Shown here: positions 48-13,216 of the stretch, one piece after another | Layout of the letters: each line of letters begins with the position of its first letter | Position numbering within the stretch: position 1 is the stretch's first letter | Assembly (NCBI GenBank): GCA_020343555.1 | Contig: CP070800.1 | Location: 2,279,005 to 2,292,504 of the forward strand | Direction: 5' to 3' | Length of the DNA stretch: 13,500 nt | Source: Dehalococcoidales bacterium | GTDB lineage: Bacteria; Chloroflexota; Dehalococcoidia; Dehalococcoidales; UBA2162 | Notes under the pieces: model-generated | What the model saw: the letters and a program-made list of their open reading frames with translations, nothing else | The model's database searches: none | What the model was told of the DNA's origin: nothing | Made by a program: the position numbers and the translations under genes

Positions 48-368
48 TTTCCACTCCCGTCCGCAATATATGCATAAAGTATTATAATTATTTAACGAAT
101 TCAACCTTGAAAGGTTAGCACTTGAAAGTAAAACGACATAATTAAATAATCAAAACACCGAGATAGTTTCACATTCTATTTTCCCTATTGAGATTATACC
201 ATTGTGAAAGAAACAATCTTATGTTAACAGAATTAACCTGTCAAGTAAGACAATAATAACATAAATAACAAGATTACAGATGATATCCGGACATTTATCA
301 CAGATAATCGGCAACTTTTCCAGTATTATTAGTAAAAAAGACGGATATACAAAACGGGAGGAAATGTA
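48..368. other. Divergent intergenic region between the left-edge gene and the selenoprotein gene
   Basis: This is 321 nt of AT-rich non-coding sequence between two divergent starts. I see no RNA gene and no convincing ORF. It contains a minus-strand TATAAT at 86-81, a perfect 6-bp dyad at 103-116 (AACCTT-GA-AAGGTT), an inverted repeat TTTCACA/TGTGAAA at 167-173 and 203-209, and a dyad GTTAA-CAGAA-TTAAC at 223-237. For the rightward gene a TATTAT at 324-329 could be a -10 box, but no good -35 is found at normal spacing. Short dyads of this kind arise by chance in AT-rich DNA, so none is assigned a role. Confidence 0.5.
103..116. promoter_or_regulatory. Dyad next to a TATAAT box, possible operator of the left-edge gene
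   Basis: AACCTT and AAGGTT form a perfect 6-bp inverted repeat separated by GA. It lies 16 nt upstream of a minus-strand TATAAT (86-81), where a -35 element would normally sit. No TTGACA-like hexamer is found at 16-18 nt spacing, so the promoter would be weak or activator-dependent. The role is inferred from position only. Confidence 0.25.
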
Positions 369-890
369 ATGAGCGTTATCGTTTATTCAAGTCCAACCTG
401 ACCTTACTGTGATATGGTGAAACAGTTTCTTTCACAAAAGGGAGTAAATTACGAAGAACGGGATGTCTCACGCAACCAAGCGTATGCCCGGGAACTGGTG
501 AATAATACCGGACAGATGGGAGTCCCGGTAACAGTCTTCGATGGTGAGATTGTAGTCGGCTTCGATCAGCAGCGACTGGAGCAGCTTGTATCCAGCAAAC
601 CTCAGGCTAAACGCCCGTCTTTTGGGGCTTCTATTGCCGATGCAGATAAGATTACTGCAAAGCGAGGTAACCGAATAACTTCAGGAGCGTACGTAGGTGG
701 GACAAGGCAAGGTTCCGCTGCACAGAGAATAGGCTTGAAGCAGGGTGATGTTATCACGCGTGTAAACAAGCAGAATATAACAGATACAGGCGACCTTGAA
801 CGCGTGCTTGCCGGTATGAACGAAGGACAGCGAATACTGGTGGAGTTCCAGCGTGACGGTAGAGCGACTGCGGTTGAGGGTATTCTCTAG
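369..890 (+). CDS. Selenocysteine-containing glutaredoxin-PDZ fusion protein (TGA at codon 11 read as Sec)
   Basis: The ATG at 369 follows GGGAGGA (356-362) with a 6-nt spacer. The frame is open to TAG at 888-890 (173 aa) except for TGA at codon 11 (399-401). The reading is YSSPT-U-PYCDMVK, so the TGA replaces the first cysteine of the classic glutaredoxin CPYC site; C14 is the second. The rest of the fold is intact: an alpha-helix after the active site, the cis-proline loop MGVPVTVFD (P53) and the GFD motif near residues 64-66. Residues about 87-173 form a PDZ domain (GLKQGDVI core at 120-127), as in HtrA-type proteins. Glutaredoxin/NrdH folds reduce disulfides; a Sec would make a more reactive nucleophile (family knowledge). 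The PDZ suggests tethering to a partner peptide (inference). Starting at the downstream ATG 414 would delete the whole active site. No signal peptide is seen, so it is probably cytosolic. Alternatives are a sequencing error or a recent nonsense mutation of TGT/TGC. Confidence 0.85.
399..447 (+). promoter_or_regulatory. Candidate bacterial SECIS element following the in-frame TGA
   Basis: Directly after the TGA (399-401) the mRNA can form a two-tier stem-loop inside the coding sequence. The lower stem is UUACU (404-408) with AGUAA (443-447). An internal loop of 8 and 7 nt follows. The upper stem is GUGAAA (417-422) with UUUCAC (430-435), perfectly paired. The apical loop is the 7-nt CAGUUUC, which contains a G, a base important in known bacterial SECIS loops. 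The apical loop starts 21 nt after the UGA, within the range expected for SelB-dependent recoding. Competing short pairings exist (for example ACUGU 406-410 with ACAGU 422-426), so the fold needs computation. Confidence 0.55.
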
Positions 891-3205: not shown

Positions 3206-4372
3206 TTATTCCAGATTTGGTGGAATCCTCAGCTTGCTGTCTACTTCCTCGAGATCGAACCACCACTTTTCATTAGTCCTGGCTTTATCGGGTTTGAGTA
3301 TCTTCGAGGACTGGATGGCAATCCTCCGGGCAACTCCGGAACGTTGAACTGCCCAGCGAACGATGTTGTGGGAAAATGTATTCGGTCTTGTCCAGGGACA
3401 TACCTTTATGCATCTTCCGCAGTAAGTCCCTTTTTTATTCATCACCCTGAAGCTATGGCATCGCTGTTCGTCCAGCTTCCAGGTTTCATAGCCATTATGC
3501 ATTGTTTTTTCACCGCGAGGACTGGCATTTCCAGGGCAATAATCGGCGCAGATTAAGCAGTTCTTACAGAAGTCCTGAAGGCCGAATTCAACCGGTTTAT
3601 CGGGAGTAAGCGGCATATCGGTGAGAACAACAGCGGCTTTGAAGTGCATTCCGAGGTATGGATTGAGTATGATTCCGGCTCGACTGACCTCACCGATACC
3701 CGACCATAATAAGAGAGATGCAAACAATACATGGCATCCGTCGGGCATCTTTCCCGTGTATTCTGCCGAAGCAGGATAACCGAGACGCCGGATATAATTC
3801 GCCATTGTCTCGGATATCACAGCCAGGCGGAGATACAGATCATAACTCAGAGGAAGACCTATCCAGTCAAATCCGTTCGATGCGTCAAGTGTCTCATATT
3901 CTTTAGCCATCACAATGACGATTGCGTATTTATACTTGATATCTATTTCACTACCCTGCATATCATGGCTGTAAACCGCGTACTCAGGAACGTGACTTAC
4001 ACCCATTATGTCTGCTCTTAGAAAATATCCCAGTCGTTTGATGAAACGGGTCAGCATTTCAGGATTATCCGGTAGGGGTGCTGTTTTGAAGGACACGTTA
4101 TTCTTTTCAGTCATGGCTACGTAGCGGCGGATATCGCCAAGCGAAATACCCAGAGGATCTTTGGTAGCTGCATGCGGAGCTTCTTTAGCTACGGCTGGTC
4201 CGTAATCACCACGACGTGCTTTAGTGAAAGCGTTCTCTCGGGAATCGGTTCTCTGTACATTATCGGTAATCAGACTGGTCGGAGTATTAACACGCTTTAG
4301 TTTTCTCATCGGGAAAGGTTCATACTCCTTAGTTCCTGTCAGGTAACCGCTTGCATTCACCATATCAGACAT
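3206..4372 (-). CDS. Reductive-dehalogenase-like (RdhA family) corrinoid iron-sulfur protein without Tat signal
   Basis: 388 aa, ATG at 4372 after GGGAGGA. RdhA features are clear: IRRLGYPA (194-201), the LLWSGIGEVSRAG helix (221-233), NPYLG and the TDMPLTPDKPVEFG segment (251-264), then two ferredoxin-type 4Fe-4S motifs, C269-x2-C272-x2-C275-x3-C279-P and C305-x12-C318-x2-C321-x3-C325-P, and the WWFDLEEVD tail. Family members use cobalamin and two Fe-S clusters to remove halogen from organohalides. Respiratory RdhAs have a twin-arginine signal and an adjacent membrane anchor RdhB; neither is present, so this is probably cytosolic and non-respiratory (inference). The related epoxyqueuosine reductase QueG is less likely because the LPLTPDKP-type and C-terminal segments match RdhA. 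It lies 35 nt after the helicase and 78 nt before the hydrolase. The substrate is unknown. Confidence 0.85.
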   Translation of the reverse strand: MSDMVNASGYLTGTKEYEPFPMRKLKRVNTPTSLITDNVQRTDSRENAFTKARRGDYGPAVAKEAPHAATKDPLGISLGDIRRYVAMTEKNNVSFKTAPLPDNPEMLTRFIKRLGYFLRADIMGVSHVPEYAVYSHDMQGSEIDIKYKYAIVIVMAKEYETLDASNGFDWIGLPLSYDLYLRLAVISETMANYIRRLGYPASAEYTGKMPDGCHVLFASLLLWSGIGEVSRAGIILNPYLGMHFKAAVVLTDMPLTPDKPVEFGLQDFCKNCLICADYCPGNASPRGEKTMHNGYETWKLDEQRCHSFRVMNKKGTYCGRCIKVCPWTRPNTFSHNIVRWAVQRSGVARRIAIQSSKILKPDKARTNEKWWFDLEEVDSKLRIPPNLE

Positions 4373-11585: not shown

Positions 11586-12380
11586 ATGGAACCAATAAGG
11601 GTTATTGTCCAGGGTGCACTGGGTAAAGTAGGTCGTGAAATCGTCATCGCAGTTTGTCGCGATACCGAGACAAAGATTGTTGGTGCGGTTGATATCGATG
11701 CAAAGAATACAAGTCTCTCTTTACCGGATGGATCGGGTGAAGTACCAATTTCCAAAGATATCAATGAAATACACGAAAAATGCCCCGCTGATGTGCTGGT
11801 GGATTTTACGGTTGCCAGTGCCACGATGCCTGCAGCCCGGGCGACGTTGACCAAAGGTGTGAATATGGTCATCGGCACCACGGGTCTTTCCGAAGATGAA
11901 CTGACTGAACTGGAGAACCTCACTGTCGATAACAACGCGGGAGTAGTGATCGCGCCTAATTTTGCGCTTGGAGCAGTGCTGATGATGCATCTTGCCAGGA
12001 TCGCAGCGAAATACATGGAGTTCGCCGAGATTATCGAGCTTCATCATAACCAGAAGGCAGATGCACCGTCCGGAACCGCCCTCTTAACGGCAAGAGGAAT
12101 GGCAGAAGAACGAGGAAATCCCTTTCCTGATCCTTATGACAGTGACAAGAATTTCAAGAGCAGGGGACAGGTAGTAGAAGGCGTACCCATTCATGCGATA
12201 AGATTGCCCGGCCTGATGGCTCATCAGGAGGTTATCCTCGGAACTGCAGGACAGACGTTAAGTATCAGGCATGACACGATAAACCGCGAATGTTATACAC
12301 CGGGTGTTCTTTACGCTGTCAAGGATGTGGTTAAGCGTAAGGGATTCACATACGGACTCGATGTATTGCTGGGATTATAA
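11586..12380 (+). CDS. dapB: 4-hydroxy-tetrahydrodipicolinate reductase, copy 1
   Basis: 264 aa. The enzyme reduces hydroxy-tetrahydrodipicolinate with NAD(P)H in the diaminopimelate/lysine pathway in the cytosol. The nucleotide-binding motif is GALGKVG (10-16); GTTG (97-100) and APNFALGA follow. The substrate-site signature ELHHNQKADAPSGTA gives H153, H154 and K157, the catalytic histidine/lysine pattern of DapB. After the second beta strand it has VGAVDIDAK, acidic at the position that contacts the adenosine ribose. The ATG at 11586 has AAGGAG 7 nt upstream. It is followed by a second dapB only 35 nt away, then asd. A complete, ordinary DapB, and the likelier canonical copy. Confidence 0.95.
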   Translation: MEPIRVIVQGALGKVGREIVIAVCRDTETKIVGAVDIDAKNTSLSLPDGSGEVPISKDINEIHEKCPADVLVDFTVASATMPAARATLTKGVNMVIGTTGLSEDELTELENLTVDNNAGVVIAPNFALGAVLMMHLARIAAKYMEFAEIIELHHNQKADAPSGTALLTARGMAEERGNPFPDPYDSDKNFKSRGQVVEGVPIHAIRLPGLMAHQEVILGTAGQTLSIRHDTINRECYTPGVLYAVKDVVKRKGFTYGLDVLLGL

Positions 12381-12415
12381 CCTCAACCGCTGTCATAGAT
12401 TCATTGAATCAGTCT

Positions 12416-13216
12416 ATGGAACCTATCAGAATTATTGTACGCGGAGCTATTGGTAGAATAGGGCGTGAAGTATGCAGATCGCTTCGTTTTGAACACGATT
12501 TTAAACTGGTCGGAGCAGTAGTATCCCCGAGGCAGCGTGAGAGGGTAATAACCTTTATCCATACAACAGAAGAATTTGATCAGGTGGTTGTCTCTGATAA
12601 CCTTGAATTTGTTATCAACCAATGTCAGCCGGACGTGATGGTAGATTTTACCAGTGCCTCGGAAGCAATGCCTGCCGTTCGAACTGCTGCCTGTAATAAA
12701 GTGAACCAGGTGATAGGCACAACCGGATTTTCTAACAATGATATTGCTGAAATGAGAAAACTTGCCGAATCCAATGGTATTGGGATATTATTAGTCTCTA
12801 ACTTCGCACTCGGTGCTGTATTGATGATGCACCTTAGTAGAATTGCGGCCAGGTATATGGAAAGCAGTGAAATAATCGAACTGCATCATAACAGGAAGGC
12901 TGATGCACCTTCAGGTACAGCATTTTCTACAGCTGGAACGATGGTAGAAACAAGGATAAAAGGAGATTCTCTATCTAAAGATACCGGAGAAATAAGCAGA
13001 GGAGAGAGGGTTGACGGAACAGCCATTCATAGCATCAGATTGCCGGGACTTATGGCTCATCAGGAAGTTGTGATGGGAACTGCCGGACAGACATTGAGCA
13101 TAAAACATGACATTTATAGCCCTGAATGCTATGTTAAAGGAGTATTTTTAGCAATTAGACAAGCAGTTGTCCGAAAAGGATTTACTAATAGTCTGGACGA
13201 ATTAATAGGATTATAG
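12416..13216 (+). CDS. dapB: Dihydrodipicolinate reductase paralogue, tandem copy 2
   Basis: 266 aa from the ATG at 12416, homologous to the start of copy 1 (both begin MEPIR); a TTG at 12404 would add four residues and has no better ribosome site. GAIGRIG (10-16), GTTG (101-104), SNFALGAVLMMHL and ELHHNRKADAPSGTA (H157, H158, K161) are intact, so it should be catalytic. The C-terminal half closely matches copy 1 (for example IRLPGLMAHQEV, GTAGQTLSI), but the cofactor half diverges: copy 1's VGAVDIDAK is VGAVVSPRQRER here, changing acidic to basic. This could alter NADH/NADPH preference (inference). No clear Shine-Dalgarno precedes the start; translation may depend on coupling to copy 1. Codon use is visibly AT-richer than copy 1. 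Confidence 0.9.
   Translation: MEPIRIIVRGAIGRIGREVCRSLRFEHDFKLVGAVVSPRQRERVITFIHTTEEFDQVVVSDNLEFVINQCQPDVMVDFTSASEAMPAVRTAACNKVNQVIGTTGFSNNDIAEMRKLAESNGIGILLVSNFALGAVLMMHLSRIAARYMESSEIIELHHNRKADAPSGTAFSTAGTMVETRIKGDSLSKDTGEISRGERVDGTAIHSIRLPGLMAHQEVVMGTAGQTLSIKHDIYSPECYVKGVFLAIRQAVVRKGFTNSLDELIGL

Follow-up and report, generated by a model that had tools for sequence, protein, structure and literature searches.

A misannotated glutaredoxin-PDZ gene of a Dehalococcoidales bacterium, predicted to encode a selenoprotein with selenocysteine at its active site

The analysis of a window of 13,500 nucleotides (the whole stretch of Dehalococcoidales DNA considered here) revealed a glutaredoxin-PDZ gene (369..890, + strand; 173 codons, with TGA read as selenocysteine, Sec) that, judging from sequence and with a probability of about 0.95, encodes a Sec-containing oxidoreductase whose UGA (399-401) would be decoded via SelB and a SECIS element. 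This is a real but misannotated selenoprotein gene, whose product is a variant of the Sec glutaredoxins already known, with a PDZ domain fused to it. Replacement of the first active-site Cys by Sec, which the first-pass annotation had proposed from the position of the TGA, is strongly supported by the TGA column among relatives, by a hairpin specific to the TGA genes and by the sel machinery of the genomes that carry the TGA.

The reading frame consists of ten codons from the ATG, a TGA, the codons for PYC, 159 more codons and a TAG (888-890), and is preceded by a Shine-Dalgarno region (CGGGAGGAAATGTA; 355..368, +), as had been described. The single in-frame TGA (399..401, +) is codon 11 and coincides with the first Cys of the active-site motif CPYC, also as first noticed; it would be read as Sec11 of U-P-Y-C. 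Gene callers start at an internal ATG (414..416, +), upstream of which no Shine-Dalgarno-like sequence was found. Indeed, the table-11 ORF call from this codon is 158 aa long, as is the database protein identical to the product of this start (P0002), and the active site is lost, which bears out the earlier suspicion of a wrong start. Codons 1-10 appear to be translated, since the two positions that differ from the relative L010 (84% identical protein) are both synonymous.

For the profile searches of the 173-aa product, the TGA was entered as Cys. The product comprises (i) a glutaredoxin domain (PF00462; residues 3-62; 375..554, +), scoring 69.1 bits over a gathering cut-off of 22.9, and (ii) a PDZ domain (PDZ_2, PF13180; residues 99-167; 663..869, +), scoring 44.9 bits against a cut-off of 27, both of which are also seen in the structure model. 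If the TGA is Sec, residues 11-14 (U-P-Y-C) form the UxxC motif of glutaredoxin selenoproteins. The AlphaFold model has a mean pLDDT of 85.3 and a pTM of 0.52, so that the single domains are trusted above their mutual arrangement. The best glutaredoxin match of the model is PDB 7c10 ('Dithiol cGrx1'; 1.1 A over 73 columns, 45% identity), and its PDZ part resembles HtrA/DegP-type PDZ domains such as that of 7l71 (2.5 A over 100 columns). A verified selenoprotein glutaredoxin is reportedly from Clostridium sp. OhILAs, which we take to be the source organism of 7c10 as well.

As the first-pass annotation had noted, no Sec machinery is encoded in the window: it holds no tRNA gene, and no sel gene is present among the ten other genes, eight of which were scanned with Pfam while rpsO and pnp were judged from their own sequence. 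No conserved gene neighbour that could act as client or reductase was found across the loci of the Grx-PDZ family; 10 of these loci have an upstream gene that was classed as Crp/Fnr-like by its sequence. The window also encodes a predicted reductive dehalogenase-type Fe-S protein (3206-4372, -; 388 aa; TIGR02486, 162.4 bits for a cut-off of 160.35) and two dapB genes in tandem (11586-12380 and 12404-13216, +), each with DapB_N and DapB_C.

Relatives were collected by full-protein searches that read through stops and counted them, in overlapping sets defined around the genome of L001 (Dehalococcoidia bacterium): 294 genomes of the class and 400 of the phylum (both drawn from more; the latter without class label), 12 of the family and 156 of the order. 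Rows were taken from 43 class genomes matching both domains, from 20 new genomes of the family and order sets (order E up to 1e-30) and from 26 new genomes of the phylum set (E up to 1e-28). Two TGA genes whose frame is broken in the contigs (L094, L095) were excluded from the alignments and from the resulting 88 genes. With the window included, the first sets gave 62 readable rows, in which column 11 holds 39 TGA, 13 TGT, 9 TGC and one TCA; all 26 phylum rows were readable, with 18 TGA and 8 Cys codons. Overall, the homologue alignment suggested by the first-pass annotation thus yields 57 TGA, 30 TGC/TGT, one TCA and no TAA or TAG at this column, and no randomly placed stops: where the matched stretch of a relative holds a stop, it is one TGA, at column 11. 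Its occurrence at the identical column in 56 other genomes is more than chance would give and makes a sequencing error at 399-401 very unlikely.

Gene callers appear to have missed this selenoprotein family. Indeed, 34 of the best 35 protein-database matches (P0002-P0036) are 157-158 aa long, and all ten that were inspected begin at the internal Met and do not contain the active site. The next tier of matches (about 60% identity) consists mostly of 173-aa proteins, among which P0037 and P0038 carry CPYC. From the DNA of the window and of L001, we infer that most of the short matches also have the TGA.

The strongest added evidence for Sec is a SECIS-type hairpin, which the first-pass annotation had not seen. 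In the window, this putative bacterial SECIS (417..435, +) is composed of two arms (417-422 and 430-435; 6 pairs) and a 7-nt loop (423-429, CAGUUUC) with a G at 425, the 24th base after the TGA. Bacterial SECIS elements carry a G in the apical loop and follow a distance rule of 16-37 nt. At the family level, a hairpin with an apical-loop G is found just downstream of the UGA, as in bacterial SECIS elements. By eye, GUGAAAG-AGUUU-CUUUCAC is common to the TGA genes and begins 15 nt after the TGA. In these class I genes (30, window included), 98.1% of the cells are paired and 6 cells are changed on both sides. The seventh pair (423/429) is formed in 28 of the 30; it is C-C in the window, which is left with 6 pairs, and this pair next to the loop is lost in the same way in L010. 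Class II (9 genes) is offset by one in register (GUCAAG-AGGUUU-CUUGAC and variants), with 98.1% of the cells paired and 3 changed on both sides.

In cells paired, changed cells and covariation score, class I was matched by none of 500 shuffles; for the number of doubly changed pairs, 35 of 500 were as high, and slid registers gave a pairing of at most 66.7%. For class II, 19 of 500 shuffles were as high. The 23 non-TGA genes are only 39.8% and 53.6% paired on the class I and class II structures, respectively, and RNAalifold, which recovered the hairpin in both TGA sets, gave no structure for these 23 genes. The registers were chosen on these same sequences, so that the fair tests are the synonymous-codon nulls, in which the protein is kept, and the genes fetched later. 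With the codon null, 31 of 39 TGA genes had P<=0.05 (mean z -2.71), versus one of 23 non-TGA genes (L076; mean z -0.07); in the later-fetched set, all 18 TGA genes reached this level, versus 2 of 8 non-TGA genes (L128, L137).

The window hairpin alone (6 of 7 pairs, -4.1 kcal/mol) has P=0.083 against codon-matched sequences, and single-sequence folds of 45, 68 and 81 nt of the window did not outperform shuffles (z about +0.7); the signal came only from the 24-nt hairpin region with the codon-matched null and from the alignments. When the window and L001 were scanned with Rfam, no SECIS family was returned; we know of no general bacterial SECIS model in Rfam. Two kinds of non-TGA genes are worth describing here. 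In L076, TCA (Ser) occupies the Sec position (1531-1533; genome G352) while all seven hairpin pairs are intact, and SelA, SelB and tRNA-Sec are all present in this genome. This Ser form is likely a relic of a recent Sec-to-Ser change, a sequencing error at this codon being conceivable. In the Cys forms L137 and L128, the hairpin region exceeds its codon-matched nulls in stability (P=0.003 and 0.028, respectively), with pairings unlike those of the TGA genes.

L001 is the nearest relative (84% identical). Its genome (G001, Dehalococcoidia W403) encodes SelA and SelB together on contig L126 (3263-4651 and 6578-8428), a tRNA-Sec(UCA) and a SelD carrying one TGA. With SelA as query, the protein database gave a SelA protein (P0243) that is 91% identical to that of G001 and scores over the curated selA cut-off. 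It sits on a contig of 2,332,868 bp, the same size as is given for the contig of the window protein P0002, a link based on this equality of size. A SelB query of the protein database did not return the window's contig among the best 120 of 7998 matches, possibly because the database is clustered at 90%.

Machinery was counted in 40 TGA genomes (27 of the class set and 13 of the family and order sets), including those of the excluded genes L094 and L095 (G151, G088). At least one of SelA, SelB and tRNA-Sec is present in all 40: SelB scores over its cut-off in 38 (25/27 class, 13/13 family/order), SelA was found in 36 (24/27 and 12/13) and tRNA-Sec in 30 (23/27 and 7/13). For tRNA-Sec, matches were counted from 60 bits upwards, the Rfam threshold being 47, because matches of about 50 bits recur as second matches beside a clear tRNA-Sec and 47 is exceeded in 5 of 14 control genomes. 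By this rule, at least one Sec part is present in 12 of the 16 Cys genomes of the class set and in 27 of its 27 TGA genomes (p=0.015), with none in four Cys genomes (G060, G107, G072, G077); at 47 bits, G060, G072 and G077 gain a tRNA match and the contrast vanishes. SelA is over the cut-off in 196 of the 294 class genomes; its frequency in TGA genomes (24/27) compares with 173/267 (p=0.007) and with 11/16 in Cys genomes (p=0.11). Since SelA is so common in the class, the co-occurrence is modest when taken alone, and supportive rather than decisive.

No clear tRNA-Sec (over 60 bits) was obtained for ten of the 40 TGA genomes (G171, G028, G151, G088, G396, G419, G397, G335, G388, G392), all of which have SelB; in nine of them only part of the candidates was scored. 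The matches of G396 and G397 (48.5 and 49.6 bits) are just above 47, and probable other tRNAs reach similar scores. Near the sel genes of these ten genomes, no tRNA-Sec was found by ARAGORN in 13 stretches nor by Rfam in 8 of the 13. The missing tRNA-Sec is likely due to incomplete assemblies and to the partial scoring of candidates. Separately, SelD (L154, L155 and other places) was found as a full-length match with one in-frame TGA in 8 of the 11 genomes searched.

Three other explanations could be considered. The gene could be a pseudogene, a Cys glutaredoxin-PDZ gene in which the TGA arose by simple nonsense mutation or through an error of sequencing; Cys forms do exist (30/88 genes), but the TGA is shared by the 56 other genomes, the hairpin is specific to TGA genes, and the comparison with L010 gives 22 synonymous and 6 nonsynonymous changes in codons 12-74, which means that selection persists beyond the TGA; constraint is weaker over codons 75-173, the PDZ half, with 33 and 34. 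This makes a pseudogene extremely improbable. A suppressor or reassigned tRNA could instead read UGA as Cys or another standard residue, without SelB and SECIS. The alternation of TGA with Cys codons would agree with this, as would the stop codons of the 11 listed genes of the window (7 TAG, 4 TAA, no TGA). However, the ten other genes of the window are whole ORFs without a sense TGA, two of them longer than 700 aa, TGA terminates 2 of 19 sampled ORFs in G001, and Sec is what the conserved hairpin and the sel genes point to, so that such a decoding is considered very improbable.

Finally, the real product could start at ATG 414, possibly under selenium shortage, as a PDZ protein in which the glutaredoxin fold is incomplete, the upstream ATG-TGA then being a leader. 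This start is the one used by gene callers, all 33 relatives chosen for alignment A4 keep Met16, and six of these have it as their own annotated start. Against this, Met16 is often replaced in the wider family, including in TGA genes (e.g. L013, L016), and the Cys relatives have the full length. Codons 1-10 show conservation in that their changes are synonymous, and the good Shine-Dalgarno is that of 369, with none at 414; there is very little chance that this start gives the real product. Decoding of the UGA as Sec is the preferred reading.

Under Sec decoding, the product would be a thiol/selenol oxidoreductase, with a glutaredoxin-like domain bearing Sec11-Pro-Tyr-Cys14 followed by an HtrA-type PDZ domain. 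The stem-loop at 417-435 would recruit SelB and Sec-tRNA(Sec), so that UGA 399-401 is translated as Sec; the comparative data support this standard SelB/SECIS route. As suggested by fold and motif, the Sec11 selenolate could attack a disulfide, Cys14 could resolve the selenenyl-sulfide, a reductase or a small thiol could recharge the enzyme, and the PDZ domain may dock it onto the tail of a partner.

In a tree of the 88 proteins, built by a quick method with column 11 masked and with 30 of its 85 inner branches open, the distribution of Sec needs 14 changes versus 25.6 with shuffled labels, and 6 are forced by well-supported branches, indicating that Sec and other residues were exchanged repeatedly. 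Cys forms with remnant hairpins have been described in other families in the available text of PMC1794560, which counts three glutaredoxins among bacterial selenoproteins and three selenoproteins for the Chloroflexi. A broader proposal is advanced as speculation: Grx-PDZ might be a selenoprotein family of the Dehalococcoidia, and probably of the wider phylum, with repeated moves between Sec, Cys and Ser and with the Ser form with intact hairpin in transition; its PDZ domain might tether the Sec centre to specific client or membrane proteins, making it a distinct redox relay or sensor and not a general glutaredoxin.

The gene adds the Grx-PDZ architecture to Sec proteins, widens the selenoproteome of the class Dehalococcoidia, to which organohalide respirers belong, and offers a natural series, well sampled, in which Sec, Cys and Ser are exchanged with gain and decay of the SECIS. 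Sec glutaredoxins are already known, and no description of the PDZ fusion was found in the portions consulted of the open-licence literature on selenoproteins, glutaredoxins and Chloroflexi/Dehalococcoidia. In Dehalogenimonas alkenigignens, the available text of PMC4918011 mentions selC, sel genes and the selenoproteins SelD and formate dehydrogenase, with no occurrence of glutaredoxin. PDZ is mentioned only for Trx7/PDZ with CxxU in the accessible parts of the 2026 review PMC13188914, and once, for the thioredoxin_7 type, in those of PMC9312934.

Several known families can be compared with the window product. Trx7/PDZ (NF041199) is also a selenoprotein family with a PDZ domain, but it is of the CxxU, thioredoxin_7 type according to excerpts of PMC13188914 and PMC9312934, whereas the window product has UxxC in a glutaredoxin and scores 36 bits, under the curated cut-off of 300. 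The best NCBIfam match is GlrX_YruB (TIGR02196; 86.0 bits, just under the curated cut-off of 88.55), from which the product differs by its Sec and its PDZ domain; a UxxT Grx-like selenoprotein, 'Distant Grx-like protein 1', is filed under the same model in an excerpt of PMC9312934. The UXX-star families (NF041212, NF041211, NF041114), listed in part of PMC13188914, share the glutaredoxin-like fold and Sec at the first motif position (NF041212: 63.4 bits for the window product, below the curated cut-off of 66), whereas the window product has Cys at the second motif position (UxxC) and the PDZ fusion. The UxxC motif is shared with the selenoprotein Grx of PF00462, given as experimentally verified in an excerpt of PMC13188914 (its ref. 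85, Kim 2011). Like the window product, it has a glutaredoxin domain with Sec replacing the first active-site Cys; the window product adds to it a C-terminal PDZ domain, a Dehalococcoidia host and the hairpin of this family.
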